Source of the DNA: Otis tarda
Lineage: Eukaryota > Chordata > Aves > Otidiformes > Otididae
Assembly: GCA_026413225.1 (NCBI GenBank)
Contig: CM048554.1
Location: 10,804,001-10,868,000, forward strand
Reading direction: 5' to 3'
DNA: 64,000 bases
The notes beneath the pieces are model-generated. The model was not told the origin of the DNA and made no database searches. It saw only the letters and a program-made list of their open reading frames with translations. Below, one piece after another: positions 3,561 through 62,205 of this stretch (its first letter is position 1; every line of letters begins with the position of its first letter). A program made the translations under genes and the position numbers.

Positions 3561-5432
3561 ACAGCTCGGCACAGGAACGCTGAGGCCCACCTGACACCTG
3601 CTTTGGTTCCCCCGCACCCCCCGAGAGGAGCTCTTCCATGTCAGTGCCCACAACGTTCACCCCGACTCCCTGCAGCAAAAACATCAAGGAGTCAACTGGC
3701 AATCAAGTTGCTAAAACTCCCCAGTTCAGCATACAGAAATCTCTCCTTCCCTCCTTCTCCAGACACAGCTTTGGTTTGCCACGGCAGCATAGTGAAGGGG
3801 CGAGAGGAGCAAAGAAAAATCAAATGAAACGGAAAACGCATTTTCATTTACTTGACACATTAAAGCACATTCTTCTAACTAAAGAGCGACATTTCAATCC
3901 CCACTCAGAGAAAGTCAGTATCCAAGACTTCACCTGTATTCAGGCAGTCCCAACACAAAACGACAGCAGAGAGGGGGCTGTGGGAAAGGAGCAACAAATC
4001 CCTTCCCTTCTCTGGCAGCGTAAACCCTTGCCAAGGGCAGGGGCCTTTCAGTATCTACAAGGATGCTGCAAATAAGGAGGGAATGAGCTTCTCCCCATGC
4101 TCCGTGTAGAGGGCAAGGAGGAAGGGGCTTCAAACGAAGCCAAGGAAACGCCAGAGGTTTTTTTTTGGCCGTGGGAGCCTCCAGTGACCACAAGCTATTT
4201 CTCCTTTCAAAGTAAAGGCCAGTAGCTCCTGAGAGCAGCTGAAAGCCATTCACGAGATAACGCTACGACACAGAACCCTTCGGCTCGAGGAAAGGCTCGT
4301 TCGGCTTCGTTCTCACAGAAGCCATCAGACACGGGACAAAGCACCAACTGCATTCTTTCTCTAGGAAAAGGCTGTAGCAAACGGAAAGGCACTGGCCAAC
4401 AGAAGCCGACGTTCTCCACATTTGGCACAGTCGCCCAGCGTGAATGTTCACATGGGCGATATCGACAATTTCTGAGAGAAGCTTCTGGCACACAACTGGC
4501 AAAAGATGATCCTGCATCCAAAGGCAGCCCAATGCCAGCTGGCAGCAATGGCCATTTTATCTGCGCGCAGGGAACTTTTTGCCACCCAGGTGAAAAGCTG
4601 CAGTGGGTGTGGATGTCTCTTTTCAAGCGTGACCTGGCAGATGTTCACAGGGCAGCCGCAGCCACGCAAGAATGCTTCTCCCCTGCTGAATTTCAGGATT
4701 GTGTCCAAAAAGGGCCAGATTCACACGGCTCCAGTCGTCTGTCCTGAAACATACTAAAAACTTTCAAACTCTCTTTCGTGACAGCTCAGGAACGTTGGGA
4801 ACACAACCAGTGGTTCAATACACCGACATACTGTTCGCAAGCGATGTAGACAACCTGCACTTAACTACTGTGCCTCAAGAGCATCAAAGAAACGACACCT
4901 AAAAGGAAAGCTGGCAGCAGACTAACAAAGGCTGACACTGCGCTGACTCAAAGCACAGTAAAAAATGGTTGAGACAGATTCCCCAGCGGCAGCCAAGAAT
5001 CAGTCTGCCACGCAGCAGGTGTGAAGTGTAACTCCACAGTATCTATTTTGTTTCAGCAAAACTGAAGGCTTTCCTGACGCCCCTATTTTGCATCAGGCAC
5101 AGGAAGAGGAAGCATGAAGAACCTTGTGTTTCAAGCTACGAGACACCAATGGTGCTGCAAAAGAAACAGATGAGAAAATAAAAGCAAAACACTTTCAGAG
5201 CTCAGTCCTCTGGCCCCACCGCTTAAGAAAACAAAAACACCCCACCAAAATAATACACATGGACAAGAAAGGCATTGCCGAATCCCCTCGTCCCCACTAA
5301 AACCTTCCCGGAGTGCCCACATCACTGAGCACAAAGCAGTTTTCAAAGCAATTCCTCTTCTTGCGCCTCCAAGTTTTAACGCAGCCAGATCAGACACTGG
5401 TAATGTTGTTCCGTGCAGGTACTTTTTGGTCT
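3561..5432. other. Unassigned region between CpG island and APLF fragment
   Basis: Mixed-composition DNA with short overlapping frames on both strands, the longest about 145 codons on + (3638-4075) and 139 codons on - (4207-4626). I recognise neither, and neither shows domains or clear splice sites. It may be 5' UTR/intron or 3' UTR of the gene fragment whose promoter and last exon flank it. Equivalent regions are about 11040-12915, 18520-20397 and, truncated, 25985-27138. Confidence 0.4.
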
Positions 5433-5610
5433 TCACAAAGAACCTTTTGCTTCTTGCAAAAGCGTTTCAACATCTTTGTTATCCTGCTCTTCTGAACTTC
5501 GTTCCCATCAAGAGTCTTCATCGGTAGATTCGCGCTCCTCGTCCTCATCATCTAGAAAGCCGTCACTAAAGTCATACTCATTTGGTTCATCACCATTGGC
5601 GCCGTCTCTC
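5433..5610 (-). pseudogene. APLF: APLF last-exon fragment (copy 1)
   Basis: Read on the minus strand this encodes an acidic C-terminus of the form EPNEYDFSDGFLDDEDEE, then STDEDS, a stop, W, and a DVETLLQEAK ending. That order matches the extreme C-terminus of APLF (aprataxin and PNKP-like factor), whose acidic tail binds histones in DNA break repair. An in-frame stop interrupts the DS-W junction and the protein ends early. None of the FHA, Ku-binding or PBZ zinc-finger exons are visible, so this is an exon fragment rather than a gene. ERV sequence abuts it at about 5612-5620. Confidence 0.75.
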
Positions 5611-5754
5611 TCCACAGCCCTTAGTCCTACAGGGCAAAGATGTCAGATACTCAGGAATCCTAACTATGGAACTAAAAAGACCTTCCAGAGACCACCTAGC
5701 TAGCCTCTCTCCTCCAGAGGAGAAAGAATCAACTAAAGCACTCTACCCAACGCT

Positions 5755-5945
5755 GATCCTCCGGCGAGGCACGATGAAGGGCTCCTCCCAAACGGCACAA
5801 TGAAGGGCTAAGAAGGCGCAGCACAGCGCGATCAACGGCTCCTGCGGCGCGATGCAGGGCTCCTCTGCTACACCAGGACATGGGGCTCCTCGGGCATAGA
5901 AAGAGGCGGGTCTCGTGCGGGGAGCGGCAAAAAGAGGCGGGTCTC
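5755..5945 (+). repeat. Degenerate short repeats from ERV U3
   Basis: Several imperfect units built around GGGCTCCTC plus a variable GGCAAAA or GCGATG-type remainder. The stretch CATGCAGGGCTCCTCTGC-like at about 5845-5865 closely resembles 35765-35785 in the 36-kb LTR. It is therefore a U3 remnant of the same ERV family and a small relative of the minisatellite at 54.5-64 kb. Copies occur at 13238-13428 and 20720-20910. Confidence 0.65.
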
Positions 5946-6611
5946 TGCAGAGTCTTTGTCTCAAAGGACTGCTTCCCCAGGCCACAGTCAATTCAGTCGG
6001 ACAGTGGTTCCCACTTCACTGCCAGAACAGTCCAAGACTGGGCAGCCCAGGAGGGAATTTCATGGGTATACCATACCCTGTATTATCCGCAGGCAAATGG
6101 GATTGTGCAAAGGACAAACGGCCTGTTCAAACGCTTCACGAAACCGCATAAGCCAGGAAGGGCTGAACGGCTAAGGGATGCAGTAACAAACGTTAATAGC
6201 CAATGGGGAGTCCACGGATGCCCAAAAATTACAGCCTTTTGTCCAAAAGCCACCCGCACAGCCTGGGGAACGGAAGGATTCTGGGGACTTGGAGTTGCCA
6301 CTGTGCCAACACGATTATGGTTAGATAAGTTAGCCTATCAAGTAGAAAAACCAGCTGATGCTACTGAGACTACTATACGGCTGCTTAATCAGCAACTGCA
6401 AGCCACACCAAAAATGGCTCTTCAAAACCGCACGGCGCTAGACCTGATGGTGATACATCAAAGTGGACTTTGTGGCTACTTAAACCTCTCCAGCACTGAT
6501 GGCTGTATCTACATCCCTAACGCTACCCAGGCCCTTAATGTCCAAGTGGAAAAAATACGACGAGTAGCAAAAGACACTCATGAACTCCACAAATCCATGA
6601 ATTCTAGCTAG
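5880..6611 (+). pseudogene. ERV integrase-envelope fusion fragment (copy 1)
   Basis: One 243-codon frame. The first ~38 codons read through LTR-like repeats. Then comes a retroviral integrase core piece with the second acidic residue (QSDSGSHFTA). The block where the third acidic residue is expected reads NGIVQRTNG, with Q instead of E, so catalysis is not expected. It then joins directly to an envelope transmembrane-subunit ectodomain with the immunosuppressive-like segment ALQNRTALDLM. A stop at 6609-6611 precedes the membrane anchor, which continues in another frame to about 6760. The integrase C-terminus and surface subunit are missing, so this is a deletion product. The frame is conserved in all three copies. 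Confidence 0.7.
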
Positions 6612-7269
6612 CTTTCGAAAATATTTAGTTGGTTCGGATTTAGTGTTGCTGGCTGGATGCAAACTTTGGTGCAATATGTAAAAATGTTCACTGCAATAAT
6701 AATCATCATAAGTATTAGCAATATCTTGTGCAAAACCAACTCTAATGAAAACTGTTAACACACGAATGATTCCACTGACTAATTACACCCCCTTACGGCA
6801 GAAGGAGGATGAGGAAGACCTAATCGATGTCCTTAAAGCTGAAATAGCACCTTAAGACCAGACTGAGGAACTTTCTAACTCACAGGGTAGAACGTACAGT
6901 TACGCACGGAAGAATAATGAGGAGGTAGGAAATGGAGGCTAGCATAGCTATAACCCAGTTTTTTTCCTCTCTTTCCACCCCCCCTTTTCTTTTCTGAAGA
7001 AACCCCATAGCATATTTTGTAACTTGCTTTTATGTAACTTGCTTTTATGTAACTATAGTTATAACAATATATAACGAATTTGAGTAGGTAAAGGACAACA
7101 GAACCGCAAAGCCAGAAAAATCTGTGACCCGACCCTTCCGGAAGGAAGTGCTGGGGCATTCTGGATGCCCTTTTACGCGAAGCAGAAACAACGTGGCCAT
7201 CAGCCTACCACGAGGGCCGCAGTCAGCATCTGCAGCCATCTTCTTCGCAAATAGGTTCCTCAGAAGGCG
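6612..7269 (+). mobile_element. ERV tail upstream of LIN28B
   Basis: The envelope membrane anchor (isoleucine-rich, near 6640-6730) continues here in a shifted frame. It is followed by an acidic stretch near 6800-6850 and then non-coding DNA with repeated TTTATGTAACTTGC near 7028-7050. No LTR boundary is seen before LIN28B begins at about 7270. Equivalents are 14095-14752 and 21577-22233. Confidence 0.5.
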
Positions 7270-7819
7270 ATGAGGTCAATCAAGAAGGTCTCCTCAGGCT
7301 CAGCAAGGCCGAGTAAAAGCGGAGACGAGCCCGGGAAGTTGCCGGAGCAGAAAGAAGAAGGGTTCAATGTGAAAACGGGATTCGGGTTCATCTCCATGAG
7401 CAACCATGAGGAAAGCCCCTTGGAGTCTCCAGTTGATGCCTTTGTACACCAAAGCAAGCTTTACATGAAAGGATTTAGAAGCCTAAAAGGAGGAGAACCA
7501 GTGGAATCTACTTTTAAAAAAATCTTCCAGAGGCCTTGAATCAAGACAGGTAACAGGCCCTGGTGGGAGCCCCTGTTTAGGAAGTGAAAGGCGACCCAAA
7601 GGGAAGACAGTACAAAAAAGAAAAACAAGGGGAGATAGATGCTACAACTGTGGCGGCCTCGACCACCACACTAAAGAATGCAGTCTACCTCCGCAGCCAA
7701 AGAAGTGCCATTGCTGTCAGAGCATCACGCACACGGTGGCTAACTGCCCCCATAAAACTGTCTCGCAGCAGCCCACTAGTTCTCAGGAAAGACACGAAGC
7801 CATGGAGAAAACTCCCTAG
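7270..7819 (+). pseudogene. LIN28B: LIN28B retrocopy, complete array copy
   Basis: The first frame (7270-7539) encodes EPGKLPE, then a shortened join into the cold-shock domain with GFGFISM, FVHQSKL and GFRSLK, and stops after FQRP. A +1 frameshift near 7530 restores homology in another frame: GLES, then VTGPGG, the basic linker and two CCHC knuckles (about 7640-7681 and 7706-7747), with a stop at 7817-7819. The residues just before FNV in LIN28B are deleted. All exon junctions are fused, so it derives from spliced RNA, yet no poly(A) tail is seen. It sits between ERV envelope remnants and a 3' LTR. It is non-coding as a full protein, although separate cold-shock and zinc-knuckle peptides remain open. 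Confidence 0.92.
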
Positions 7820-8272
7820 GGATTCTTCTTGTTGCTGTCTGTTTGGGCTTTAAAGAAAACAAAGTGTCTTACACTTATCTGGTATCCCATTTGGGACTGA
7901 TTACTCTTTTAGGCATTATTATGATTACTCGGTTGATTTACACTTGTTTTCCCTGCAATTGCCACTGTGGACAATCACCACCTTCTGCTAACCACTCCGA
8001 ACCATGAACAAATCTTAACTACCGTGCTCGTTTCTGGTTGCTAAATGTTAGTCTTTTATTTGTTCTATGGCTTCGCTGCGTTAATGTTTTTGCCATCTAT
8101 TACTCTTTCAATTAACTCAATGTGTTGTAAACAATATGCCATTTCTAACCACTGTTTCACCTGACGTTATTCCATACCGACTGCATAAAATGCTCTTTTC
8201 TGACTTTCACTACTTAACTACCTCTTCTTAAAACCGCCCTGGGTCCTGAAGCAATCTCTGAGCCACGGGTGG

Positions 8273-8883
8273 TGTGAGAGACTGAACTGCAGAGGCTTTG
8301 TCTCAAAGGATTGCTTGGTCAAGCGAGAAATTCCTCCCAACTATCTAAGCGGGGCATTCCTCCAGCTGCTGGACAGGATAAGGACGATTGCAAGGCCCCA
8401 GAGATGCCTGGTTTGTAATTCAGGTAACAACTGGGTGAGGAGCGGGGCCAGGGTCATGGAGTGGATGCACGGATGCAGAGGTGTGAGGACGGGCAGCTGG
8501 TGAGGGGCCGCAGCCCTCCAGAGGGATAAAAACACTGTTCAGACAAGCTCTCTCTGCGATCGCCCACTGCTGAAGCACTGAGAGATTTGGACCCCCGAGA
8601 CACCGTGGATCCATGGTGGTGACTATTCTTGCAACTCGATCCCAAACGCTTGCTTAATTTCCACCTTTTCTTCTCACTCTGTCCTATTGCTACTATTATG
8701 CACCTTTTCAGAATAAAACTAAGTCTGGTTGCACAGAATTTGACCTCGTTTGTGTCTTAATCTCGCTTGAGGTGACCAAAAGCACAGCGAGATTTTCCTT
8801 TAGCTGCACCTAGCCTCCCACACTTGCCTCAGTTAAGCTAAAACACAAGGGGGCCTTCCTCTCATCCAAATCAGACCATAACA
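8273..8883 (+). mobile_element. ERV 3' LTR (array copy 2)
   Basis: Same as the LTR at 789-1399, with TATA-like sequence near 8525 and AATAAA near 8712. Confidence 0.8.
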
Positions 8884-11045: not shown

Positions 11046-12915
11046 CACAGCTCGGCACAGGAACGCTGAGGCCCACCTGACACCTGCTTTGGTTCCCCCG
11101 CACCCCCCGAGAGGAGCTCTTCCATGTCAGTGCCCACAACGTTCACCCCGACTCCCTGCAGCAAAAACATCAAGGAGTCAACTGGCAATCAAGTTGCTAA
11201 AACTCCCCAGTTCAGCATACAGAAATCTCTCCTTCCCTCCTTCTCCAGACACAGCTTTGGTTTGCCACGGCAGCATAGTGAAGGGGCGAGAGGAGCAAAG
11301 AAAAATCAAATGAAACGGAAAACGCATTTTCATTTACTTGACACATTAAAGCACATTCTTCTAACTAAAGAGCGACATTTCAATCCCCACTCAGAGAAAG
11401 TCAGTATCCAAGACTTCACCTGTATTCAGGCAGTCCCAACACAAAACGACAGCAGAGAGGGGGCTGTGGGAAAGGAGCAACAAATCCCTTCCCTTCTCTG
11501 GCAGCGTAAACCCTTGCCAAGGGCAGGGGCCTTTCAGTATCTACAAGGATGCTGCAAATAAGGAGGGAATGAGCTTCTCCCCATGCTCCGTGTAGAGGGC
11601 AAGGAGGAAGGGGCTTCAAACGAAGCCAAGGAAACGCCAGAGGTTTTTTGGCCGTGGGAGCCTCCAGTGACCACAAGCTATTTCTCCTTTCAAAGTAAAG
11701 GCCAGTAGCTCCTGAGAGCAGCTGAAAGCCATTCACGAGATAACGCTACGACACAGAACCCTTCGGCTCGAGGAAAGGCTCGTTCGGCTTCGTTCTCACA
11801 GAAGCCATCAGACACGGGACAAAGCACCAACTGCATTCTTTCTCTAGGAAAAGGCTGTAGCAAACGGAAAGGCACTGGCCAACAGAAGCCGACGTTCTCC
11901 ACATTTGGCACAGTCGCCCAGCGTGAATGTTCACATGGGCGATATCGACAATTTCTGAGAGAAGCTTCTGGCACACAACTGGCAAAAGATGATCCTGCAT
12001 CCAAAGGCAGCCCAATGCCAGCTGGCAGCAATGGCCATTTTATCTGCGCGCAGGGAACTTTTTGCCACCCAGGTGAAAAGCTGCAGTGGGTGTGGATGTC
12101 TCTTTTCAAGCGTGACCTGGCAGATGTTCACAGGGCAGCCGCAGCCACGCAAGAATGCTTCTCCCCTGCTGAATTTCAGGATTGTGTCCAAAAAGGGCCA
12201 GATTCACACGGCTCCAGTCGTCTGTCCTGAAACATACTAAAAACTTTCAAACTCTCTTTCGTGACAGCTCAGGAACGTTGGGAACACAACCAGTGGTTCA
12301 ATACACCGACATACTGTTCGCAAGCGATGTAGACAACCTGCACTTAACTACTGTGCCTCAAGAGCATCAAAGAAACGACACCTAAAAGGAAAGCTGGCAG
12401 CAGACTAACAAAGGCTGACACTGCGCTGACTCAAAGCACAGTAAAAAATGGTTGAGACAGATTCCCCAGCGGCAGCCAAGAATCAGTCTGCCACGCAGCA
12501 GGTGTGAAGTGTAACTCCACAGTATCTATTTTGTTTCAGCAAAACTGAAGGCTTTCCTGACGCCCCTATTTTGCATCAGGCACAGGAAGAGGAAGCATGA
12601 AGAACCTTGTGTTTCAAGCTACGAGACACCAATGGTGCTGCAAAAGAAACAGATGAGAAAATAAAAGCAAAACACTTTCAGAGCTCAGTCCTCTGGCCCC
12701 ACCGCTTAAGAAAACAAAAACACCCCACCAAAATAATACACATGGACAAGAAAGGCATTGCCGAATCCCCTCGTCCCCACTAAAACCTTCCCGGAGTGCC
12801 CACATCACTGAGCACAAAGCAGTTTTCAAAGCAATTCCTCTTCTTGCGCCTCCAAGTTTTAACGCAGCCAGATCAGACACTGGTAATGTTGTTCCGTGCA
12901 GGTACTTTTTGGTCT

Positions 12916-13093
12916 TCACAAAGAACCTTTTGCTTCTTGCAAAAGCGTTTCAACATCTTTGTTATCCTGCTCTTCTGAACTTCGTTCCCATCAAGAGTCT
13001 TCATCGGTAGATTCGCGCTCCTCGTCCTCATCATCTAGAAAGCCGTCACTAAAGTCATACTCATTTGGTTCATCACCATTGGCGCCGTCTCTC
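12916..13093 (-). pseudogene. APLF: APLF last-exon fragment (copy 2)
   Basis: Same acidic C-terminal fragment with the same internal stop as at 5433-5610. Confidence 0.72.
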
Positions 13094-13362
13094 TCCACAG
13101 CCCTTAGTCCTACAGGGCAAAGATGTCAGATACTCAGGAATCCTAACTATGGAACTAAAAAGACCTTCCAGAGACCACCTAGCTAGCCTCTCTCCTCCAG
13201 AGGAGAAAGAATCAACTAAAGCACTCTACCCAACGCTGATCCTCCGGCGAGGCACGATGAAGGGCTCCTCCCAAACGGCACAATGAAGGGCTAAGAAGGC
13301 GCAGCACAGCGCGATCAACGGCTCCTGCGGCGCGATGCAGGGCTCCTCTGCTACACCAGGAC

Positions 13363-14094
13363 ATGGGGCTCCTCGGGCATAGAAAGAGGCGGGTCTCGTG
13401 CGGGGAGCGGCAAAAAGAGGCGGGTCTCTGCAGAGTCTTTGTCTCAAAGGACTGCTTCCCCAGGCCACAGTCAATTCAGTCGGACAGTGGTTCCCACTTC
13501 ACTGCCAGAACAGTCCAAGACTGGGCAGCCCAGGAGGGAATTTCATGGGTATACCATACCCTGTATTATCCGCAGGCAAATGGGATTGTGCAAAGGACAA
13601 ACGGCCTGTTCAAACGCTTCACGAAACCGCATAAGCCAGGAAGGGCTGAACGGCTAAGGGATGCAGTAACAAACGTTAATAGCCAATGGGGAGTCCACGG
13701 ATGCCCAAAAATTACAGCCTTTTGTCCAAAAGCCACCCGCACAGCCTGGGGAACGGAAGGATTCTGGGGACTTGGAGTTGCCACTGTGCCAACACGATTA
13801 TGGTTAGATAAGTTAGCCTATCAAGTAGAAAAACCAGCTGATGCTACTGAGACTACTATACGGCTGCTTAATCAGCAACTGCAAGCCACACCAAAAATGG
13901 CTCTTCAAAACCGCACGGCGCTAGACCTGATGGTGATACATCAAAGTGGACTTTGTGGCTACTTAAACCTCTCCAGCACTGATGGCTGTATCTACATCCC
14001 TAACGCTACCCAGGCCCTTAATGTCCAAGTGGAAAAAATACGACGAGTAGCAAAAGACACTCATGAACTCCACAAATCCATGAATTCTAGCTAG
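13363..14094 (+). pseudogene. ERV integrase-envelope fusion fragment (copy 2)
   Basis: Same 243-codon frame, same altered catalytic position and same stop as at 5880-6611. Confidence 0.7.
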
Positions 14095-14752
14095 CTTTCG
14101 AAAATATTTAGTTGGTTCGGATTTAGTGTTGCTGGCTGGATGCAAACTTTGGTGCAATATGTAAAAATGTTCACTGCAATAATAATCATCATAAGTATTA
14201 GCAATATCTTGTGCAAAACCAACTCTAATGAAAACTGTTAACACACGAATGATTCCACTGACTAATTACACCCCCTTACGGCAGAAGGAGGATGAGGAAG
14301 ACCTAATCGATGTCCTTAAAGCTGAAATAGCACCTTAAGACCAGACTGAGGAACTTTCTAACTCACAGGGTAGAACGTACAGTTACGCACGGAAGAATAA
14401 TGAGGAGGTAGGAAATGGAGGCTAGCATAGCTATAACCCAGTTTTTTTCCTCTCTTTCCACCCCCCCTTTTCTTTTCTGAAGAAACCCCATAGCATATTT
14501 TGTAACTTGCTTTTATGTAACTTGCTTTTATGTAACTATAGTTATAACAATATATAACGAATTTGAGTAGGTAAAGGACAACAGAACCGCAAAGCCAGAA
14601 AAATCTGTGACCCGACCCTTCCGGAAGGAAGTGCTGGGGCATTCTGGATGCCCTTTTACGCGAAGCAGAAACAACGTGGCCATCAGCCTACCACGAGGGC
14701 CGCAGTCAGCATCTGCAGCCATCTTCTTCGCAAATAGGTTCCTCAGAAGGCG

Positions 14753-15302
14753 ATGAGGTCAATCAAGAAGGTCTCCTCAGGCTCAGCAAGGCCGAGTAAA
14801 AGCGGAGACGAGCCCGGGAAGTTGCCGGAGCAGAAAGAAGAAGGGTTCAATGTGAAAACGGGATTCGGGTTCATCTCCATGAGCAACCATGAGGAAAGCC
14901 CCTTGGAGTCTCCAGTTGATGCCTTTGTACACCAAAGCAAGCTTTACATGAAAGGATTTAGAAGCCTAAAAGGAGGAGAACCAGTGGAATCTACTTTTAA
15001 AAAAATCTTCCAGAGGCCTTGAATCAAGACAGGTAACAGGCCCTGGTGGGAGCCCCTGTTTAGGAAGTGAAAGGCGACCCAAAGGGAAGACAGTACAAAA
15101 AAGAAAAACAAGGGGAGATAGATGCTACAACTGTGGCGGCCTCGACCACCACACTAAAGAATGCAGTCTACCTCCGCAGCCAAAGAAGTGCCATTGCTGT
15201 CAGAGCATCACGCACACGGTGGCTAACTGCCCCCATAAAACTGTCTCGCAGCAGCCCACTAGTTCTCAGGAAAGACACGAAGCCATGGAGAAAACTCCCT
15301 AG
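14753..15302 (+). pseudogene. LIN28B: LIN28B retrocopy (array copy)
   Basis: Same as 7270-7819: identical frameshift, deletion and early stop. Confidence 0.92.
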
Positions 15303-15755
15303 GGATTCTTCTTGTTGCTGTCTGTTTGGGCTTTAAAGAAAACAAAGTGTCTTACACTTATCTGGTATCCCATTTGGGACTGATTACTCTTTTAGGCATT
15401 ATTATGATTACTCGGTTGATTTACACTTGTTTTCCCTGCAATTGCCACTGTGGACAATCACCACCTTCTGCTAACCACTCCGAACCATGAACAAATCTTA
15501 ACTACCGTGCTCGTTTCTGGTTGCTAAATGTTAGTCTTTTATTTGTTCTATGGCTTCGCTGCGTTAATGTTTTTGCCATCTATTACTCTTTCAATTAACT
15601 CAATGTGTTGTAAACAATATGCCATTTCTAACCACTGTTTCACCTGACGTTATTCCATACCGACTGCATAAAATGCTCTTTTCTGACTTTCACTACTTAA
15701 CTACCTCTTCTTAAAACCGCCCTGGGTCCTGAAGCAATCTCTGAGCCACGGGTGG

Positions 15756-16366
15756 TGTGAGAGACTGAACTGCAGAGGCTTTGTCTCAAAGGATTGCTTG
15801 GTCAAGCGAGAAATTCCTCCCAACTATCTAAGCGGGGCATTCCTCCAGCTGCTGGACAGGATAAGGACGATTGCAAGGCCCCAGAGATGCCTGGTTTGTA
15901 ATTCAGGTAACAACTGGGTGAGGAGCGGGGCCAGGGTCATGGAGTGGATGCACGGATGCAGAGGTGTGAGGACGGGCAGCTGGTGAGGGGCCGCAGCCCT
16001 CCAGAGGGATAAAAACACTGTTCAGACAAGCTCTCTCTGCGATCGCCCACTGCTGAAGCACTGAGAGATTTGGACCCCCGAGACACCGTGGATCCATGGT
16101 GGTGACTATTCTTGCAACTCGATCCCAAACGCTTGCTTAATTTCCACCTTTTCTTCTCACTCTGTCCTATTGCTACTATTATGCACCTTTTCAGAATAAA
16201 ACTAAGTCTGGTTGCACAGAATTTGACCTCGTTTGTGTCTTAATCTCGCTTGAGGTGACCAAAAGCACAGCGAGATTTTCCTTTAGCTGCACCTAGCCTC
16301 CCACACTTGCCTCAGTTAAGCTAAAACACAAGGGGGCCTTCCTCTCATCCAAATCAGACCATAACA
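15756..16366 (+). mobile_element. ERV 3' LTR (array copy 3)
   Basis: Same as the LTR at 789-1399. Confidence 0.8.
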
Positions 16367-20844: not shown

Positions 20845-21576
20845 ATGGGGCTCCTCGGGCATAGAAAGAGGCGGGTCTCGTGCGGGGAGCGGCAAAAAGA
20901 GGCGGGTCTCTGCAGAGTCTTTGTCTCAAAGGACTGCTTCCCCAGGCCACAGTCAATTCAGTCGGACAGTGGTTCCCACTTCACTGCCAGAACAGTCCAA
21001 GACTGGGCAGCCCAGGAGGGAATTTCATGGGTATACCATACCCTGTATTATCCGCAGGCAAATGGGATTGTGCAAAGGACAAACGGCCTGTTCAAACGCT
21101 TCACGAAACCGCATAAGCCAGGAAGGGCTGAACGGCTAAGGGATGCAGTAACAAACGTTAATAGCCAATGGGGAGTCCACGGATGCCCAAAAATTACAGC
21201 CTTTTGTCCAAAAGCCACCCGCACAGCCTGGGGAACGGAAGGATTCTGGGGACTTGGAGTTGCCACTGTGCCAACACGATTATGGTTAGATAAGTTAGCC
21301 TATCAAGTAGAAAAACCAGCTGATGCTACTGAGACTACTATACGGCTGCTTAATCAGCAACTGCAAGCCACACCAAAAATGGCTCTTCAAAACCGCACGG
21401 CGCTAGACCTGATGGTGATACATCAAAGTGGACTTTGTGGCTACTTAAACCTCTCCAGCACTGATGGCTGTATCTACATCCCTAACGCTACCCAGGCCCT
21501 TAATGTCCAAGTGGAAAAAATACGACGAGTAGCAAAAGACACTCATGAACTCCACAAATCCATGAATTCTAGCTAG
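20845..21576 (+). pseudogene. ERV integrase-envelope fusion fragment (copy 3)
   Basis: Same frame as at 5880-6611. Confidence 0.7.
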
Positions 21577-22233
21577 CTTTCGAAAATATTTAGTTGGTTC
21601 GGATTTAGTGTTGCTGGCTGGATGCAAACTTTGGTGCAATATGTAAAAATGTTCACTGCAATAATAATCATCATAAGTATTAGCAATATCTTGTGCAAAA
21701 CCAACTCTAATGAAAACTGTTAACACACGAATGATTCCACTGACTAATTACACCCCCTTACGGCAGAAGGAGGATGAGGAAGACCTAATCGATGTCCTTA
21801 AAGCTGAAATAGCACCTTAAGACCAGACTGAGGAACTTTCTAACTCACAGGGTAGAACGTACAGTTACGCACGGAAGAATAATGAGGAGGTAGGAAATGG
21901 AGGCTAGCATAGCTATAACCCAGTTTTTTTCCTCTCTTTCCACCCCCCTTTTCTTTTCTGAAGAAACCCCATAGCATATTTTGTAACTTGCTTTTATGTA
22001 ACTTGCTTTTATGTAACTATAGTTATAACAATATATAACGAATTTGAGTAGGTAAAGGACAACAGAACCGCAAAGCCAGAAAAATCTGTGACCCGACCCT
22101 TCCGGAAGGAAGTGCTGGGGCATTCTGGATGCCCTTTTACGCGAAGCAGAAACAACGTGGCCATCAGCCTACCACGAGGGCCGCAGTCAGCATCTGCAGC
22201 CATCTTCTTCGCAAATAGGTTCCTCAGAAGGCG

Positions 22234-22783
22234 ATGAGGTCAATCAAGAAGGTCTCCTCAGGCTCAGCAAGGCCGAGTAAAAGCGGAGACGAGCCCGGGA
22301 AGTTGCCGGAGCAGAAAGAAGAAGGGTTCAATGTGAAAACGGGATTCGGGTTCATCTCCATGAGCAACCATGAGGAAAGCCCCTTGGAGTCTCCAGTTGA
22401 TGCCTTTGTACACCAAAGCAAGCTTTACATGAAAGGATTTAGAAGCCTAAAAGGAGGAGAACCAGTGGAATCTACTTTTAAAAAAATCTTCCAGAGGCCT
22501 TGAATCAAGACAGGTAACAGGCCCTGGTGGGAGCCCCTGTTTAGGAAGTGAAAGGCGACCCAAAGGGAAGACAGTACAAAAAAGAAAAACAAGGGGAGAT
22601 AGATGCTACAACTGTGGCGGCCTCGACCACCACACTAAAGAATGCAGTCTACCTCCGCAGCCAAAGAAGTGCCATTGCTGTCAGAGCATCACGCACACGG
22701 TGGCTAACTGCCCCCATAAAACTGTCTCGCAGCAGCCCACTAGTTCTCAGGAAAGACACGAAGCCATGGAGAAAACTCCCTAG
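22234..22783 (+). pseudogene. LIN28B: LIN28B retrocopy (array copy)
   Basis: Same as 7270-7819, spanning the arbitrary boundary between copies 3 and 4. Confidence 0.92.
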
Positions 22784-23236
22784 GGATTCTTCTTGTTGCT
22801 GTCTGTTTGGGCTTTAAAGAAAACAAAGTGTCTTACACTTATCTGGTATCCCATTTGGGACTGATTACTCTTTTAGGCATTATTATGATTACTCGGTTGA
22901 TTTACACTTGTTTTCCCTGCAATTGCCACTGTGGACAATCACCACCTTCTGCTAACCACTCCGAACCATGAACAAATCTTAACTACCGTGCTCGTTTCTG
23001 GTTGCTAAATGTTAGTCTTTTATTTGTTCTATGGCTTCGCTGCGTTAATGTTTTTGCCATCTATTACTCTTTCAATTAACTCAATGTGTTGTAAACAATA
23101 TGCCATTTCTAACCACTGTTTCACCTGACGTTATTCCATACCGACTGCATAAAATGCTCTTTTCTGACTTTCACTACTTAACTACCTCTTCTTAAAACCG
23201 CCCTGGGTCCTGAAGCAATCTCTGAGCCACGGGTGG

Positions 23237-23847
23237 TGTGAGAGACTGAACTGCAGAGGCTTTGTCTCAAAGGATTGCTTGGTCAAGCGAGAAATTCCTC
23301 CCAACTATCTAAGCGGGGCATTCCTCCAGCTGCTGGACAGGATAAGGACGATTGCAAGGCCCCAGAGACGCCTGGTTTGTTATTCAGGTAACAACTGGGT
23401 GAGGAGCGGGGCCAGGGTCATGGAGTGGATGCACGGATGCAGAGGTGTGAGGACGGGCAGCTGGTGAGGGGCCGCAGCCCTCCAGAGGGATAAAAACACT
23501 GTTCAGACAAGCTCTCTCTGCGATCGCCCACTGCTGAAGCACTGAGAGATTTGGACCCCCGAGACACCGTGGATCCATGGTGGTGACTATTCTTGCAACT
23601 CGATCCCAAACGCTTGCTTAATTTCCACCTTTTCTTCTCACTCTGTCCTATTGCTACTATTATGCACCTTTTCAGAATAAAACTAAGTCTGGTTGCACAG
23701 AATTTGACCTCGTTTGTGTCTTAATCTCGCTTGAGGTGACCAAAAGCACAGCGAGATTTTCCTTTAGCTGCACCTAGCCTCCCACACTTGCCTCAGTTAA
23801 GCTAAAACACAAGGGGGCCTTCCTCTCATCCAAATCAGACCATAACA
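23237..23847 (+). mobile_element. ERV 3' LTR (array copy 4)
   Basis: Same LTR with two visible substitutions (near 23369 and 23381) relative to the other three copies. Confidence 0.8.
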
Positions 23848-27712: not shown

Positions 27713-28704
27713 GTTCATCTCCATGAGCAACCATGAGGAAAGCCCCTTGGAGTCTCCAGTTGATGCCTTTGTACACCAAAGCAAGTTTTACATGAAAGGA
27801 TTTAGAAGCCTAAAAGGAGGAGAACCAGTGGAATTTACTTTTATAAAAATCTTCCAGAGGCCTTGAATCAAGACAGGTAACAGGCCCTGGTGGGAGCCCC
27901 TGTTTAGGAAGTGTCCTGGTTTCAGCAGGGACGGAGTTAATTTTCTTCTCAGTAGCCAGTGTGTTTTGGATTTCGTGTGTGAAGAATGTTGATAAAAACA
28001 TTCTGATGATACGAGTTGTTGTTAATGAGACCAAGGACACTGTCTGGCTTTCTAAGTCTCGTTGACGTGCAGATGCGGGAAGCTGGGCGAAAGACAGACA
28101 GAATAATTGATCCAAACTGGCCAAAGAGAGTATTCCATGCCATAAACGTCATGCTCAGTATATAAGTGGGGGTTGCCCATGGGAGGGGGTAATCCTTTTC
28201 TGGTATTCCTTTCCTTTTCTGTTCGGGCATTCTTGTCGGGTATCTGTTCGGGCACCCTTGGCATCCTTTACTTCTCTCTTGCTTGCTGGCATCGTTCCCT
28301 CTACCTTGCTAGCTCGCTCTCCCAACTTTGCTTGCTGCTCGGTGTCGTTCCTGTGATTGCTGCTCAGGACGGGCTGCGTCGGTCATTCGGACATCGGGTG
28401 GTGAGAAATTGTACATTGTTCATTTTGCATATTTTGTATATATTAATATCTTTATATCCTGTTAGCTTTGTAGTTTTTAGTATTTTTAGTAAACTGTTTT
28501 TATCTCAACCCACGAGTTTTCCTTTCTTCCCACTCTCTCTCCCCTGTCCCACTGGGTAGGGGGAGGGTGAATAAGAAACTGTGTGGTGATCCGGGCTAAA
28601 CCACCACAGGAAGTGAAAGGCGACCCAAAGGGAAGAGAGTACAAAAAAGAAAAACAAGGGGAGATAGATGCTACAACTGTGGCGGCCTCGACCACCACAC
28701 TAAA
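27713..28704 (+). pseudogene. LIN28B: Diverged fifth LIN28B piece, split by ERVL LTR
   Basis: Matches the array retrocopy from FISM of the cold-shock half (27713-27911), is interrupted by an LTR (27912-28608), then resumes through the first zinc knuckle to about 28704. It differs from the array copies at several bases. It reads VEFTF where array copies read VESTF, and VEFTF is the usual LIN28B sequence. It then jumps at about 28705 to DNA matching unit position ~2483. Confidence 0.88.
27912..28608 (+). mobile_element. ERVL-type solo LTR with 5-bp TSD
   Basis: Begins TGTCCTGGTTTCAGC, the characteristic start of avian ERVL LTRs, and ends ACCACCACA. It is flanked by a perfect 5-bp duplication GGAAG at 27907-27911 and 28609-28613. 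Five-bp duplications fit ERVL. No internal viral sequence is present. The orientation and family come from the terminal sequence and TSD length, not from a database match. Confidence 0.92.
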
Positions 28705-28747
28705 GATTGTTGACGCCTGATGAAAAACTGCCCCCACAGTCATGACT
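28705..28747 (+). repeat. Displaced array-unit fragment
   Basis: About 43 bp identical to unit positions ~2483-2525 (GATTGTTGACGCCTGATG...), fused directly to the LIN28B zinc-knuckle region. This is an internal deletion of about 2.3 kb of unit sequence. The join falls in a short shared AAG/AG. Confidence 0.85.
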
Positions 28748-32803: not shown

Positions 32804-34450
32804 GCAGGGAAGCCGATTTTAGCTCCTCAAGCAGCCCAGGCAGGATTTCAGAGCCTGAAGGCCGTGTGTCTGCGGCTGGAATCAGAAGATCTGCTTTCTC
32901 TCGCACGTAAGCAAAGCCATTTTTCCTGAATAGAGCTAGAGCTGAGACAGCCTACCATGTACGCTCTTGCAGCCAGCACATGCACTCTCAGTTCTGGGAG
33001 TTCTAAAACCATCTGGGAGGCAGTGTGCTCTCAAATACCTGCCAGAGCATGCGACACACATGGCAGAGAAGAAATTGCCACCACGCTGCTGCTGTTTCCC
33101 TCTCTCTCCCAGGCAGCTCAACAGCCAAGCACGTCAGATGCGCACCTAAAGCTCGATAGGGTGAATCTGGGTTTCAGGGTGCTCAGCTTCATAACTCAGG
33201 TGTGGAGCTGAACTCAGTCCGCACGCTACCTCACCTGGCCGTGTCTGCAGCTGGGTGCCCTTGCCAGTGGCCCGGCTGGCTGCTCTTGGGGACAGCACCC
33301 ATTTTGGCTGAGGGGATGGCTGCGTATTTTGCAGTTAAATGTCTCATTTGCTCCAATGGCACTGAAAGCAAGAACAGTAAAGAGTAAATTTGGCACTAGA
33401 GCCACAAATCAGCCGTTTCCTCCAGTACTTGGATTTGCCAGAGGCCATCACTTGTGCGGACACTGAGGAGCCCCAAATGACTCAAGCTTTCTAATCAGAA
33501 AAACAGGGATGTTTCTCCTTTCCCCAGGACTGAAGGACTGTAGGAGTGATGTTATGTGATGGTTTGTTTTTGTTTTCTTTTCAGGCGATCAAGGAGATAC
33601 ATCACTTGCGGTGAGGATCCCAGCATTAAGGTACAAAATCCAGAGCGGTATTTGGTTCCTCGGCAGCAGAAAGAAGTTAGGGGAGTACGGCATTTGAAAA
33701 GAAGGCTGAAGGAATCTGGGAGCAAACTTAAAGAAAGGTATATTTCACTTCAGAAATCAGAGTTAGAAAGACTGACTTGGGAGCATTTTGGGGTGGGAGC
33801 CCTGGCTGTTTTTCCTCAGCAGAAGTGTTACAACAGTTGTGTTTTGCTACAGGGAAACAGAAATAGAAGAGCTGAAAGCTCAGCTGGGACGGATGAAGGA
33901 AGACTGGATTGAAGAAGAGTGTAAGCGTGTGGAGACGGAGCTCGCCTGCTTGCAAGCAAGAAGGGAAATTGAAGAACTCAAGCAGGTTATTGAAAGCATG
34001 AAAACCAGCTTGGCTGAGAAAGATGAAGAAATTGAGCAATGCTTCAGAGACACAACGATTGAAAACAAGACACTGGAATCTTTGCTGCAGATCGTGAAGA
34101 TGGCTCAGGACAGCTCTGAGAGACACGGGCAGCGCCTGGGGTACACGTTGGCATGGTGTGCCACACTGCCAGACAGCCTCATGACAGAGGACCAAGCTCT
34201 GGAGGAGGTGGCAGACAGTGGGCTGCTTCCCAGTGAGGCCTCAGCAGGACTAAGGAGGAGGTGCTGGAGCAGCAGCCTCGTCGGAGATGTCCTGGCTGTA
34301 GCAGCCCCTGTTGTTCCAACTGTCCTGTGGGCTTTCAGTGCTTGGAGAGGAGGAACAAATCCCATTTGCAACATGGGGGCCTTGCTTGGTGGCTGCTGCC
34401 TGCTGGCCCTGCCCTCTTTACGCCGTGCACCCTTCAGTGTCCAAACCTGA
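32804..34450 (+). CDS. SYBU: Syntabulin-like gene, 3' exons (partial)
   Basis: Three exons with consensus splice sites and compatible phases: 32804-32906 (after a pyrimidine tract and CAG, before GTAAGC; encodes EADFSSSSSPG), 33585-33737 (encodes RRYITCGED and NPERYL) and 33853-34450 to the stop. The last exon starts ETEIEELKAQL, contains EDWIEEEC and a long coiled coil, then ends with a hydrophobic tail DVLAVAAPVVPTVLWAFS and GGCCLLALPSLRR. This matches syntabulin, a kinesin-1 adaptor carrying syntaxin vesicles and mitochondria along axonal microtubules, anchored by the C-terminal membrane segment. Compared with SYBU the last exon lacks most of the ~200-residue stretch between coiled coil and anchor, and an intermediate exon before RRYITCGE was not found. 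Upstream exons are unidentified. It could be a diverged functional paralogue or a young pseudogene; all three exons are open. Confidence 0.82.
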
Positions 34451-35755: not shown

Positions 35756-36686
35756 GGCGCAGCGCCATGCAGGGCTCCTCTGCTGCACTAGGACACAGGG
35801 CGACTCAGGCACAACACGACGGGACGCATTGGTCCTCGGGCGCAACACGACGTGACGTGGGGCTTTTTGGGTGCGACCAGACGCGATGTGGGGCTCCTTG
35901 GGCATAAAAGGACGTGGGGTTCCTCTGGTGAGTGGCAAAGGGGCGCGGGGCTCCCTCACGGCAGAAGCACGCGGGGCTCCTCCGGTTGCCAACAAAGGCA
36001 TGCGGGGCGCCTCCAACGGGCAGCAAAGGCACACGGGGCTCCCTCAGGGCAAATGATCAAGGCCCTCCCTCGGGGCAAAAGGAAACAGTGCTCCTCCGGC
36101 GAGCGGGAAAAGCACACGGAGCTCCTCCGGAGAGCGGGAAAAGCATGTGGGCCTCCCTCGGGGCAAAATATCAAGGTGCTCCCTTGGGGCAAAAGGACGT
36201 GGGGCTCCTCCAGCGAGCGGCAAAAGGACACGGGGGTCCTCCGGCGAGCGGCAAAAGGACACGGGGCTCCTCCGGCGAGCGGCAAAAGGATCCGGGGCTC
36301 CTCCGGCGAGTGGCAAAAGGACACGGGGCTAGGAAGCCTGCTCAATCAAGTTGTCTCTGCAATCTCTCACCTTCGAAGCACCGGGAGATTTGGACCTGCA
36401 GGACACCGTGGATCCATGGTGGTGTCTATTCTTGCAACTCTATCCTAAATACTCGCTTAATTTCCACCTTTTCTTCTCACTCTGTCCTATCGCTACTATT
36501 ATGCACCTTTTTAGAATAAAACTAAGTCTGGTCGCACAGCCTTTGACCTCGTTTGTGTCTTAATCTCGCTCGAGGTGATCAAACCCACAGTGAGAGGCTG
36601 GTCTAGCTGCCCCTAGCCTCCCAGACCTGCCTGAGGTCGGCTAGAACGCAAGGGGCCCTTCCTCTCATCCAAATCGGATCGTAACA
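35756..36686 (+). mobile_element. ERV 5' LTR with U3 minisatellite
   Basis: The right part (36345-36686) matches the array LTR R/U5, with GTGGATCCATGGTGG, AATAAA near 36513 and end CGTAACA. The U3 is replaced or expanded by tandem ~32-bp units of the form GGGGCTCCTCCGGCGAGCGG + CAAAAGGACACG, plus shorter CTCCCTCGGGGCAAAAG units, between about 35757 and 36335. The array LTR's TATA block is absent; GCATAAAAGG at about 35907 could substitute. The left edge is approximate. Confidence 0.75.
35930..36335 (+). repeat. Short tandem repeats in LTR U3
   Basis: About a dozen imperfect units. The last four (about 36200-36335) are regular 32-mers differing at one or two bases. They contain the same two unit types, long CTCCTCCGGCG and short CTCCCTCGGGG, as the large minisatellite at 54.5-64 kb. 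Confidence 0.85.
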
Positions 36687-41645: not shown

Positions 41646-42236
41646 TGAGAAAAGGGGTTAAAAGAAAACTCCTTAGTAGGTATAGCATTAATCAATTGCA
41701 GCTGTGCATACTAAGACAGATGGTGCTTTATGCTTTACTAACTAGCCATTGTGTAGAATATCTAAAGCGAGAAGTTTTGTATCCCTCCCAAGGACAGTTC
41801 TTGATAAGAGCTGAGGGGCCTTCTGTATGAACCAGCTAGAACCGACCCTGCGGTTTGGACAAGAACCAAAGCATAACTGAGCCTGCGCAAAAACAAAGGG
41901 TTACTAGCGGTGACGAAGAGGAGCAGCTCATCTTCATCCCCACGACCCCCGACGACCACCACCAGGAGGCACTGCGCAAGCGCAGATGGCGGGAGTTTAT
42001 GAAAATAACCCCTTGGAACTCATTTTAATACGATGGGGGGATAGCTCATGCATATGTATAGGCGTATTGTAAAACTTCATGTATATGTAACACTTGGTTG
42101 TATAAATTCAAAGTGAGTTGCCGCATGAGGCACGCACGGTTTTGGCGGGGCTACCCCCTCCCCATGCTGCCCAGCGCTGAATAAACATGCCTACTTTACA
42201 ATCTTAGAGATTGTGGAGTCCGTTTTCCACACGTCA
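41646..42236 (+). mobile_element. Class I ERV solo LTR with 4-bp TSD
   Basis: Starts TGAGAAAAGGGG and ends CACACGTCA, flanked by GTTG at 41642-41645 and 42237-42240. Near the right end ATAAACATGCC gives a poly(A) signal. It is the same family as the 3' LTR at 47318-47902, in opposite orientation. A 4-bp duplication fits class I ERVs. Confidence 0.88.
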
Positions 42237-47317: not shown

Positions 47318-47902
47318 GGACGTGCGGAAAACGGACTCCACAATCTGTAAGATTGTAAAATAGGTATGTTTATTCGGCGCCGGGCAGCACGGGGGGTAGT
47401 CCTGCCAAAACCGTGCGCGCCTGATGCGGCAACTCACTTTGAATTTATACAACCAAGTGTTACGTATACATGAAGTTTCAAAACACGCCTATACATATGC
47501 ATGAGCTATCCCCCCCCCTTCCCCCCGCTTCGTATTAAAATTAGTTCCAAGGAGTCATTTCCATAAACAGCTCCTATCCGCGCCTGCGCAGTGCCTCGTG
47601 GTGGTGGTCGTTGGGGGTCGTGGGGATGAAGATAGGTGGCTCCTCTTCGTCAGCGCTAGTAACTTTTTGTTTTCGCGCAGGCTCGGTTATGTTTTGGCTC
47701 CTATCCAAGCCATAGGCTCGGTTTAGCTGGTTCTTGGGGGGGCGGGAGGGGGGCTGGTTCTTATCAGGAACTGTCCTTGTGAGGAATGAAAGACTTCCCA
47801 CCTCAGATAATTTACACAACAGATAGCACCATTTGTCTTAGTATGCACAACTGTAACTAATCAATGCCATATCTATTAGAATTTCTTTAACCCCTTCTTT
47901 CA
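47318..47902 (-). mobile_element. 3' LTR of minus-strand ERV
   Basis: Reverse complement of the LTR family at 41646-42236, about 585 bp, starting TGAAAGAAGGGG on the minus strand. The expected terminal CA is altered at the minisatellite junction. Confidence 0.88.
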
Positions 47903-54494: not shown

Positions 54495-56558
54495 GAATCT
54501 GGGCTCCTCTGACGAGCGACAGAAGGACGCGGGGCTCCTCCGGCGGGCGGCAGAAGGACGCGGGGCTCCTCCGGCGGGCGGCAGAAGGACGCGGGGCTCC
54601 ACCGGCGGGCGGCAAAAAGGACGCCCGGCTCCTCCGGCGGGCGGCAAAAAGGACGCGGGGCTCCCTTGGGAAAAAAGTAACCGGGGCTCCTCCAGCAAGC
54701 GGCAAAGGCACGCGGGGCTCCCTTGGGGCAAAAGTAACTGGGGCTCCTCCGGCGAGCGGCAAAGGCACGCGGGGCTCCTCCGGCGAGCGGCAAAGGCACG
54801 CGGGGCTTCTCTCGCTGTAAAAGCAACTGGGGCTCCACAGCAAGCGGCAAAGGCACGCGGGGCTCCCTTGGGGCAAAATTACCGGGGCTCCTCCGGTAAG
54901 CAGCAAAGGCACGTGGGGCTCCCTTGCGGCAAAAGTAACCGGGGCTGCTCCGTCGAGCGGCTAAAGCACGCGGGGCTCCTCCGGCGAGCGGCTAAGGCAC
55001 GCGGGGCTCCCTTGGGGCAAAACTAACCGGGGCTCCTCCGGCGGGCGGCAGAAGGACGCGGGGCTCCTCCGGCGGGAGGCAAAAAGGACGCGGGGCTCTT
55101 CCGGCGGGCGGCAAAAAGGACGCGGGGCTCCTCCGGCGGGCGGCAAAAAGGACGCGGGGCTCCTCCGGCGGGCGGCAAAAAGGACGCGGGGCTCCTCCGG
55201 CGGGCGGCAAAAAGGACGCGGGGCTCCTCCGGCGGGCGGCAAAAAGGACGCGGGGCTCCCACGGAGCAAAAGGACGCGGGGTTCCTCCGGCGGGCGGCAG
55301 AAGGACGCGGGGCTCTTCCGGCGGGCGGCAAAGAGGACGCGGGGCTCCTCCGGCCGGCGGCAAAACGCTCGCGGGGCTCCTCCGGCCGGCGGCAAAACGC
55401 TCGCGGGGCTCCTCCGGCCGGCGGCAAAACGCTCGCGGGGCTCCTCCGGCCGGCGGCAAAACGCTCGCGGGGCTCCTCCGGCCGGCGGCAAAACGCTCGC
55501 GGGGCTCCTCCGGCCGGCGGCAAACAGGACGCGGGGCTCGTCGGGCGGGCGGCAAACAGGACGCGGGGCTCGTCGGGCGGGCGGCAAACAGGACGCGGGG
55601 CTCCTCGGGCGGGCGGCAAACAGGACGCGGGGCTCCTCGGGCGGGCGGCAAACAGGACGCGGGGCTCCTCGGGCGGGCGGCAAACAGGACGCGGGGCTCC
55701 TCGGGCGGGCGGCAAACACGACGCGGGGCTCCTCGGGCGGGCGGCAAACACGACGCGGGGCTCCTCGGGCGGGCGGCAAACACGACGCGGGGCTCCTCGG
55801 GCGGGCGGCAAACACGACGCGGGGCTCCTCGGGCGGGCGGCAAACACGACGCGGGGCTCCTCGGGCGGGCGGCAAACACGACGCGGGGCTCCTCGGGCGG
55901 GCGGCAAACACGACGCGGGGCTCCTCGGGCGGGCGGCAAACACGACGCGGGGCTCCTCGGGCGGGCGGCAAACACGACGCGGGGGCTCCTCGGGCGGGCG
56001 GCAAACACGACGCGGGGCTCCTCGGGCGGGCGGCAAACACGACGCGGGGCTCCTCGGGCGGGCGGCAAACACGACGCGGGGCTCCTCGGGCGGGCGGCAA
56101 ACACGACGCGGGGCTCCTCGGGCGGGCGGCAAACACGACGCGGGGCTCCTCGGGCGGGCGGCAAACACGACGCGGGGCTCCTCGGGCGGGCGGCAAACAC
56201 GACGCGGGGCTCCTCGGGCGGGCGGCAAACACGACGCGGGGGCTTCTCCGGCCGGCGGCAAACACGACGCGGGGCTCCTCCGGCCGGCGGCAAACAGGAC
56301 GCGGGGCTCCTCGGGCGGGCGGCAAACAGGACGCGGGGCTCCTCGGGCGGGCGGCAAACAGGACGCGGGGCTCCTCGGGCGGGCGGCAAACAGGACGCGG
56401 GGCTCCTCCGGCTGGCGGCAAAACGCTCGCGGGGCTCCTCCGGCCGGCGGCAAACAGGACGCGGGGCTCCTCGGGCGGGCGGCAAACAGGACGCGGGGCT
56501 CCTCCGGCCGGCGGCAAACAGGACGCGGGGCTCCTCCGGCCGGCGGCAAACAGGACGC

Positions 56559-57116
56559 GGGGCTCCCTCGGAGCAAAAGCACGCGGGGCTCCTCGGGCGG
56601 GCGGCAAAACGCTCGCGGGGCTCCTCGGGCGGGCGGCAAAACGCTCGCGGGGCTCCCCGGGCGGGCGGCAAACAGGACGCGGGGCTCCTCGGGCCGGCGG
56701 CAAACAGGACGCGGGGCTCCTCCGGCCGGCGGCAAACAGGACGCGGGGCTCCCTCGGAGCAAAAGCACGCGGGGCTCCTCGGGCGGGCGGCAAAACGCTC
56801 GCGGGGCTCCTCGGGCGGGCGGCAAAGCGCTCGCGGAGCTCCTCGGGCGGGCGGCAAACAGGACGCGGGGCTCCTCGGGCCGGCGGCAAACAGGACGCGG
56901 GGCTCCTCCGGCCGGCGGCAAACAGGACGCGGGGCTCCCTCGGAGCAAAAGCACGCGGGGCTCCTCGGGCGGGCGGCAAAACGCTCGCGGGGCTCCTCGG
57001 GCGGGCGGCAAAACGCTCGCGGGGCTCCTCGGGCGGGCGGCAAAACGCTCGCGGGGCTCCTCCGGCCGGCGGCAAAACGCTCGCGGGGCTCCTCCGGCCG
57101 GCGGCAAAACGCTCGC
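56559..57116. repeat. 186-bp higher-order repeat in the minisatellite
   Basis: The 26-bp unit starts at 56559, 56745 and 56931, exactly 186 bp apart (five 32-bp units plus one 26-bp unit), with the intervening variants in the same order. Two full periods are clear; the third decays after about 56990. Confidence 0.88.
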
Positions 57117-62000: not shown

Positions 62001-62205
62001 AACGCTGGCGGGGCTCCTCCGGCCGGCGGCAAAACGCTGGCGGGGCTCCTCCGGCGGCCGGAAAAACGCTGGCGGGGCTCCTCCGGCGGCCGGAAAAACG
62101 CTGGCGGGGCTCCTCCGGCGGCCGGAAAAACGCTGGCGGGGCTCCTCCGGCGGCCGGAAAAACGCTGGCGGGGCTCCTCCGGCGGCCGGAAAAACGCTGG
62201 CGGGG
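59100..62205. repeat. Minisatellite homogenised blocks (CGCTGGC tail)
   Basis: Runs of near-identical units that switch variant in blocks: GGGCGGGCGGC (59100-59790), GGGCGGCCGCC (59790-60105), GGGCGGGCGCC (60110-60530, with one GGC unit), GGGCGGGCGGC (60530-61160), GGGCGGCCGGC (61190-61450), GGGCGGCCGGAAAA (61450-61855), CCGGCCGGCGGC (61855-62045) and CCGGCGGCCGGA (62045-62205). Each block differs from its neighbour by one to a few bases. Confidence 0.92.

Follow-up and report, generated by a model that had tools for sequence, protein, structure and literature searches.

A 64,000-nucleotide stretch of the great bustard (Otis tarda) genome (the window; C3:10804001-10868000, searched within its own assembly of 1.198 Gb in 116 contigs) carries a relic of an endogenous retrovirus (ERV) in which an intronless copy of the host gene LIN28B lies between the env transmembrane (TM) part and a long terminal repeat (LTR). 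With a probability of roughly 80%, we read this element as a fossil transduction, in which a retrovirus belonging to this ERV family took up a segment of spliced LIN28B RNA between env and its 3' LTR. The reading is based on the insert being made of joined LIN28B exons and a piece of 3' untranslated region (3'UTR), on its flanks being contiguous in LIN28B-free relatives, and on its joints recurring on other contigs. A preliminary description of the window had proposed the intronless LIN28B copy and its place on the same strand as the env relic and the LTR, and both are confirmed by PDB, Pfam and protein matches and by comparison of the window with itself. It had given the extent as 6612-8883; LIN28B is present there, but only 7255-7865 derives from it, and the sequence is ERV again by 7866. 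The element belongs to a tandem unit of approximately 7.48 kb, copies of which fill window positions 1-27138; since it repeats at steps of approximately 7483 bp, the array alone counts as one locus.

The insert is LIN28B, with a cold-shock domain and two CCHC knuckles, nearer to LIN28B than to LIN28A, and with its parent gene located in the same genome. Its first open reading frame (ORF) matches the LIN28B cold-shock domain in the PDB (E 3.6e-23, 84.8 bits), while LIN28A reaches 64.7 bits or less. The second ORF matches the second zinc knuckle of LIN28 (PF21890, E 2.8e-9) and, at 18.8 bits against a Pfam cut-off of 20.8, the CCHC knuckle PF00098; it is 83% identical to Tauraco LIN28B across 95% of the ORF length, and the two best LIN28B protein matches come from birds. 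An 89-residue query from 7270-7536 matched one protein, P0121, an unnamed LIN28B exon. The parent gene lies at C3:78.50-78.59 Mb on the minus strand, with its 5' exon in locus L035 and exons 2, 3 and 4 in L034, L029 and L030, respectively; ag stands before each exon and gt after the first three. The window unites these four exons exactly at the ag/gt borders, with 93.4% identity over 609 positions, and the insert derives from spliced host RNA.

The 5' exon (7255-7303), which holds the ATG, begins exactly at the parent splice acceptor. It is followed by exon 2 (7304-7452), from which 39 bp are lost in the window copy; exon 3 (7453-7638), with one added A that shifts the frame; the first 162 bp of exon 4 (7639-7800), with both zinc knuckles; and a 65-bp piece of 3'UTR (7801-7865) that follows an internal deletion and whose last 9 bp are microhomologous with the ERV. 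A further upstream LIN28B exon must exist, because the 5' exon carries an acceptor; none was found in the 37 kb covered upstream of the 5' exon. The segment 7030-7254 was considered as a LIN28B first exon and rejected, as it has no match at the LIN28B locus or in the same 37 kb. In addition, 7801-8004 was rejected as the anchor of a second gene, since 7801-7865 is LIN28B 3'UTR and the ERV 3' region begins at 7866; a weak BCMA match of 7801-8004, below the Pfam cut-off, was not used.

In the C3 unit, viral sequence of one family lies on both sides of LIN28B in the same orientation, and all parts of the element, ERV and LIN28B alike, are on the + strand. The element opens with a 30-bp LTR (U3) remnant (5945-5974), identical to 8287-8316 at 28 of 30 positions, with a score of 50, whereas 200 shuffles reached no more than 28. 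Then come the end of integrase (5972-6330, left border approximate), the env TM part (6360-6855), whose frame is broken and which comprises the anchor (6612-6755) and tail, the ERV 3' region upstream of LIN28B (6856-7254, ending in AAATAG), LIN28B itself, the downstream ERV 3' region (7866-8269) and the LTR (8270-8883). The ORF at 5880-6611 covers the integrase end (rve E 3.5e-5, below the Pfam cut-off, with PDB integrase matches) and, before 6612, env TM (TLV_coat E 1.2e-6, with PDB Env matches). The integrase fragment is 66-78% identical to six database proteins, covering 38-40% of the ORF. Env is of the gammaretrovirus type, with a TM protein of the TLV/MLV type.

The start of the LTR was set by its match to the 5' LTR of a LIN28B-free ERV copy on C40 (L042), which begins at 8270; a start at the purine run 6908-6935 was rejected on this ground. 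On C1 (L045), 8209-8883 occurs as one piece, so that the LTR there directly follows the final 61 bp of the downstream flank. In the tandem unit, neither gag nor protease nor reverse transcriptase (RT) was found, and relatives sought among viral contigs and genome contigs were not found. The R-U5 part of the LTR matches, with 84.8% identity over 349 bp, window positions 36338-36686, where a broken provirus of the same LTR family begins on the + strand and extends to approximately 40000; it contains an LTR end, a possible primer binding site, and protease, RT and RNase H matches.

By comparing the insert with LIN28B-free ERV copies and, as the preliminary description had proposed, with the spliced exons of the parent, its breakpoints could be mapped to the acceptor of the 5' exon, an internal deletion and a 9-nucleotide 3' match. 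In two such copies, L042 (C40:13.89 Mb) and L043 (C4:17.70 Mb), the upstream flank runs directly into the downstream flank. Window positions 6555-7259 match L043 at 81.7%, and env TM is continuous with the upstream flank there; the downstream flank is likewise found in L042 and in C4 copies. At the 5' joint (7254/7255), AAATAG is followed by the LIN28B 5' exon, and the empty copies read AATAG|GTACTG (L042) and AATAG|GTACCG (L043), which resembles a splice donor. At the internal joint, the first 162 bp of exon 4 are followed by sequence that lies 974 bp inside the 3'UTR, with 1181 bp lost and 2 nucleotides shared. At the 3' joint, the match AAACAAAAT is common to the LIN28B 3'UTR and the ERV; at least 9 shared bases occurred in 2 of 200,000 position pairs drawn at random. 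Where the window has the LIN28B insert, L042 has 15 bp between the two joint positions. The insert has no poly(A) tail, as had been stated earlier, because the LIN28B piece stops inside the 3'UTR.

Searches of the whole genome, in which all match counts are lower bounds, revealed LIN28B-like copies on four contigs: the C3 arrays, C16, C10 and C40. The LIN28B query (40 of 45 first-look candidates scored) gave at least 46 matches, namely 27 whole copies and 2 fragments on C3, 14 on C16, 1 on C40 and 2 parent exons. The whole C3 copies span 10.15-10.95 Mb; 11 are 521 bp long, like that of the window, and 16 are 560 bp long, and three of the latter, when aligned, still have the 39 bp lost in the window. 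The C16 matches represent six main copies and smaller pieces. The upstream flank (6860-7253) gave at least 36 matches (27 in the C3 arrays, 6 on C16 and 1 each on C4, C10 and C40), none of those listed lying at the LIN28B locus, and the C10 copy was found through this flank. The downstream query (7802-8272) gave at least 35, 28 in the C3 arrays and 7 elsewhere, including the LIN28B 3'UTR itself.

The preliminary description had suggested looking for dispersed copies with the same internal junctions, and these exist. The C40 copy (56.74 Mb) has the internal 1181-bp deletion and the 3' LIN28B/ERV joint of the window, and on C16 and C10 LIN28B is joined to the same upstream ERV flank as on C3, with a gap of approximately 14 bp. 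Upstream of that flank, C10 and C16 have another 248 bp in common. The C16 copies (L022 4433) break at the same GAAGC as the internal deletion of C3 and C40, a coincidence that is unexplained. On C10, an LTR-like repeat interrupts LIN28B exon 2 (L047 606-1221); it also occurs in the window, inverted, at 41646-42236 and 47319-47902.

Eight copies were aligned (4 from C3, 3 from C16 and 1 from C40), and they differ from the parent LIN28B by approximately 7 to 13%; the capture was probably an old event. Between C3 and C40, identity is 89.1% of 348 positions in LIN28B and 89.0% of 237 in the ERV flank, and such equal divergence is expected if both parts travelled together. The C3 and C16 copies have 15 common differences from the parent and one further site where each differs in another way. 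For at least one of the 15, site 576, it is the parent that has changed, since other birds have H there; four of the 15 alter residues that, by eye, are unchanged in the LIN28B proteins compared (R to K, M to T before GFGF, E to K, and R to Q). One capture followed by spread fits these copies best. An added A breaks the frame in all four aligned C3 copies, and one of three C16 copies has an in-frame stop; the copies look dead. Their dN/dS values were rejected as a measure of selection, undecisive because the parent LIN28B is itself conserved.

In transduced oncogenes, capture proceeds by read-through transcription, splicing into the host gene, co-packaging, and recombination during reverse transcription. 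An acceptor-exact 5' joint opposite a donor-like site, together with a short-match 3' joint, fits this model. A provirus upstream of or inside LIN28B would have been transcribed past its own end, and the read-through RNA would have been spliced from the donor-like AATAG|GTAC of the ERV to the acceptor of the LIN28B 5' exon. From co-packaged RNAs, reverse transcription may then have switched template from the LIN28B 3'UTR to the ERV at the 9-nucleotide match, the 1181 bp being removed in that step or another. The element would have reached several loci and decayed, and the C3 copy would later have multiplied as tandem arrays. Chimeric RNA, co-packaging and recombination are likewise outlined as a capture route in the available text of Chong et al. 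2014 (PMC4299795).

Between its borders, the insert retains the cold-shock domain, both knuckles and the ATG of the 5' exon, and a stop codon closely follows the internal joint; a shortened LIN28B product without its C-terminal tail was therefore plausibly once made. LIN28B is known to act on let-7 and growth, and the captured gene may have been active in the carrier virus, where blocking let-7 and promoting growth of the infected cell would likely have been of benefit. A bolder proposal, to which we give somewhat less than even odds, is that an exogenous bird retrovirus of the acute-transforming type, carrying the shortened LIN28B with both RNA-binding domains and no tail, infected germ lines. 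If so, the captured gene of such a virus would be a pluripotency RNA-binding protein acting on let-7, and the splicing and the microhomology switch would still be readable beside two empty sites and the parent in one genome.

Several observations weigh against transduction or weaken its support. The donor-like ERV site is weak at +4 and +5, and TAGGT is common to the ERV and to LIN28B genomic DNA at the 5' joint, so that a template switch on unspliced LIN28B RNA is not distinguishable by the letters alone. The gap at the 5' joint, seen in C10 and in both C16 copies aligned there, means that base-exact identity of that joint with C3 is not shown. The C16 copies lack the 3' joint and pass into another LTR, and at each of the three C16 loci compared the env piece and LIN28B have opposite orientations. 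The C40 copy has lost its 5' part in a CR1 element and, from approximately 8119, continues as the end of a different ERV. Ahead of the LTR at 8270 there is no clear polypurine tract, and no provirus of the ERV family was found within the 109 kb of the LIN28B locus examined. The dN/dS values of the eight copies against the parent (0.40-0.76) give no sign of strong constraint. Finally, in the subset of LIN28B-bearing copies examined, none has two LTRs and a target duplication: the C3 copy has one LTR, the other being reduced to a 30-bp remnant, and the C16 and C40 copies are broken. For this reason, and with the 248 bp shared by C10 and C16, the loci can be called no more than possible separate integrations.

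The most serious competitor, although an improbable one, is LTR-mediated retroposition in one cell lineage, in which particles of an ERV or LTR element would have packed LIN28B mRNA by chance and template switching would have formed a single chimera that was later duplicated as DNA, with no spread of a gene-carrying virus. Template switching at microsimilarities is a described route for such retrocopies, chicken included, in the available text of PMC5408686, the C3 copies have plainly multiplied as DNA arrays, and the upstream sequence common to C10 and C16 points the same way. On the other hand, the host part of the C3 unit did not turn up in the stretches examined on C16 and C40, the distances of C3, C16 and C40 from one another are similar to their distances from the parent gene, and the exact splice-acceptor border would require a second coincidence.

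Still less probable, and in our judgement unlikely, is a retrocopy of LIN28B made by a CR1-type long interspersed element (LINE) that landed in one resident ERV copy, the composite then spreading. The insert is intronless, CR1 elements (recognised by eye) are common in the window, and the 9-nucleotide match could also arise as priming in target-primed copying. However, neither poly(A) nor a target duplication, the hallmarks that the preliminary description had named as evidence for a retrocopy, was seen at the insert, where 15 bp of ERV are missing instead; its 5' end is exactly an exon border and not a chance truncation, and CR1 elements are generally unable to make retrocopies, according to the available text of PMC8232201 and PMC3136929. 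A union of ERV and LIN28B by genomic rearrangement in this array only, also raised earlier as a way in which the proposal could fail, is consistent with the window itself, where the arrangement is confined to one array and its rearranged edge. It is already contradicted by the joints on C40, C16 and C10 and by the contiguous flanks of the LIN28B-free copies, and hardly any weight is left to it. The proposed transduction by the ERV family is thus supported by the spliced insert, the recurring joints and the empty ERV copies.

The remaining copies of the element in the window are a partial first copy, cut inside LIN28B by the window start (1-1399), a second (approximately 13428-16366) and a third (approximately 20910-23847), all on the + strand; the ERV part shows 2 substitutions and one 1-bp gap among three array copies compared. 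A LIN28B fragment at 27713-28709 (+ strand) was rejected as an independent copy, because it is part of the unit in rearranged form; a solo LTR (27913-28607), bordered on both sides by the 5-bp repeat GGAAG, interrupts it. The unit also contains a GC-rich segment and, on the minus strand at 5400-5640 and 12876-13125, a relic of the APLF acidic-domain exon with a stop codon (E 4.8e-6 to PDB 6yn1), which has multiplied together with the ERV. At C3:10.15-10.36 Mb (L015-L020, minus strand), an array of the LIN28B/ERV unit lies inside a larger repeat of approximately 14.3 kb. On C40 (L021, approximately 4216-3420, minus strand), LIN28B and its ERV flank pass into the end of the different ERV, which has a clear polypurine tract and an LTR-like end, and the C40 copy may be a recombinant of two ERV families.

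Elsewhere in the window, a Syntaphilin-like coding stretch lies amid repeats at 33776-34447 on the + strand (Pfam E 4.4e-39), and a second type of retrovirus occupies 53901-48874 on the minus strand, with Gag_p30, weak Gag_MA, RNase H and integrase zinc-binding matches. A 32-bp GC-rich minisatellite fills 54501-64000 (at least 9.5 kb) and continues beyond the window end; short stretches related to it precede the LTR at 36338 and the integrase fragment (at 5838-5945). An Rfam scan of 1-54500 and a tRNA scan gave no matches.

Few germline fossils of retroviral host-gene capture have been described, and we know of none that carries an RNA-binding pluripotency factor. With filled sites, empty sites and the parent in one genome, the two-step capture model becomes checkable base by base, and the case bears on how retrocopy-poor birds, in which CR1 seldom makes retrocopies, gain spliced gene copies via retroviruses. 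The preliminary description knew of no LIN28B-carrying ERV, and none appeared among the papers listed in literature searches on LIN28 and LIN28B, most subscription papers being outside the reach of that search.

The position of the gene recalls Rous sarcoma virus src and other transduced oncogenes, in which a host growth gene lies between env and the 3' LTR, and the proposed read-through, splicing and template switching are likewise those of src. In contrast, the present element is an endogenous fossil and no infectious virus, and its gene encodes an RNA-binding regulator, not a kinase or a transcription factor. LTR-mediated retroposition (Tan et al. 2016; available text of PMC5408686 and PMC8232201), by which an mRNA is joined to an LTR element through short-match template switching, resembles this case in the switch itself and in the copying of part of an mRNA; unlike it, the LIN28B element has a 5' joint exactly on an exon border and is present as a composite on several contigs. 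The closest germline parallels are crocodilian, the capture of KIT-ligand by CrocERV29 and of nectin3 by CrocERV31 (Chong et al. 2014, PMC4299795), a paper whose available text mentions src and does not mention LIN28. As there, an intronless host mRNA lies within an ERV lineage, in several genomic copies and on the strand of the viral genes; the KIT-ligand element keeps its viral genes, and the joints of the LIN28B element would allow the same. However, according to that text, KIT-ligand is located between pol and env and nectin3 stands in place of env, whereas LIN28B lies between env and the LTR, and nine KIT-ligand copies have an ORF under purifying selection, whereas all four aligned C3 copies are frameshifted. 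Capture by ERVs is already known; new here are the identity of the gene, its location between env and LTR, and joints that can still be read.
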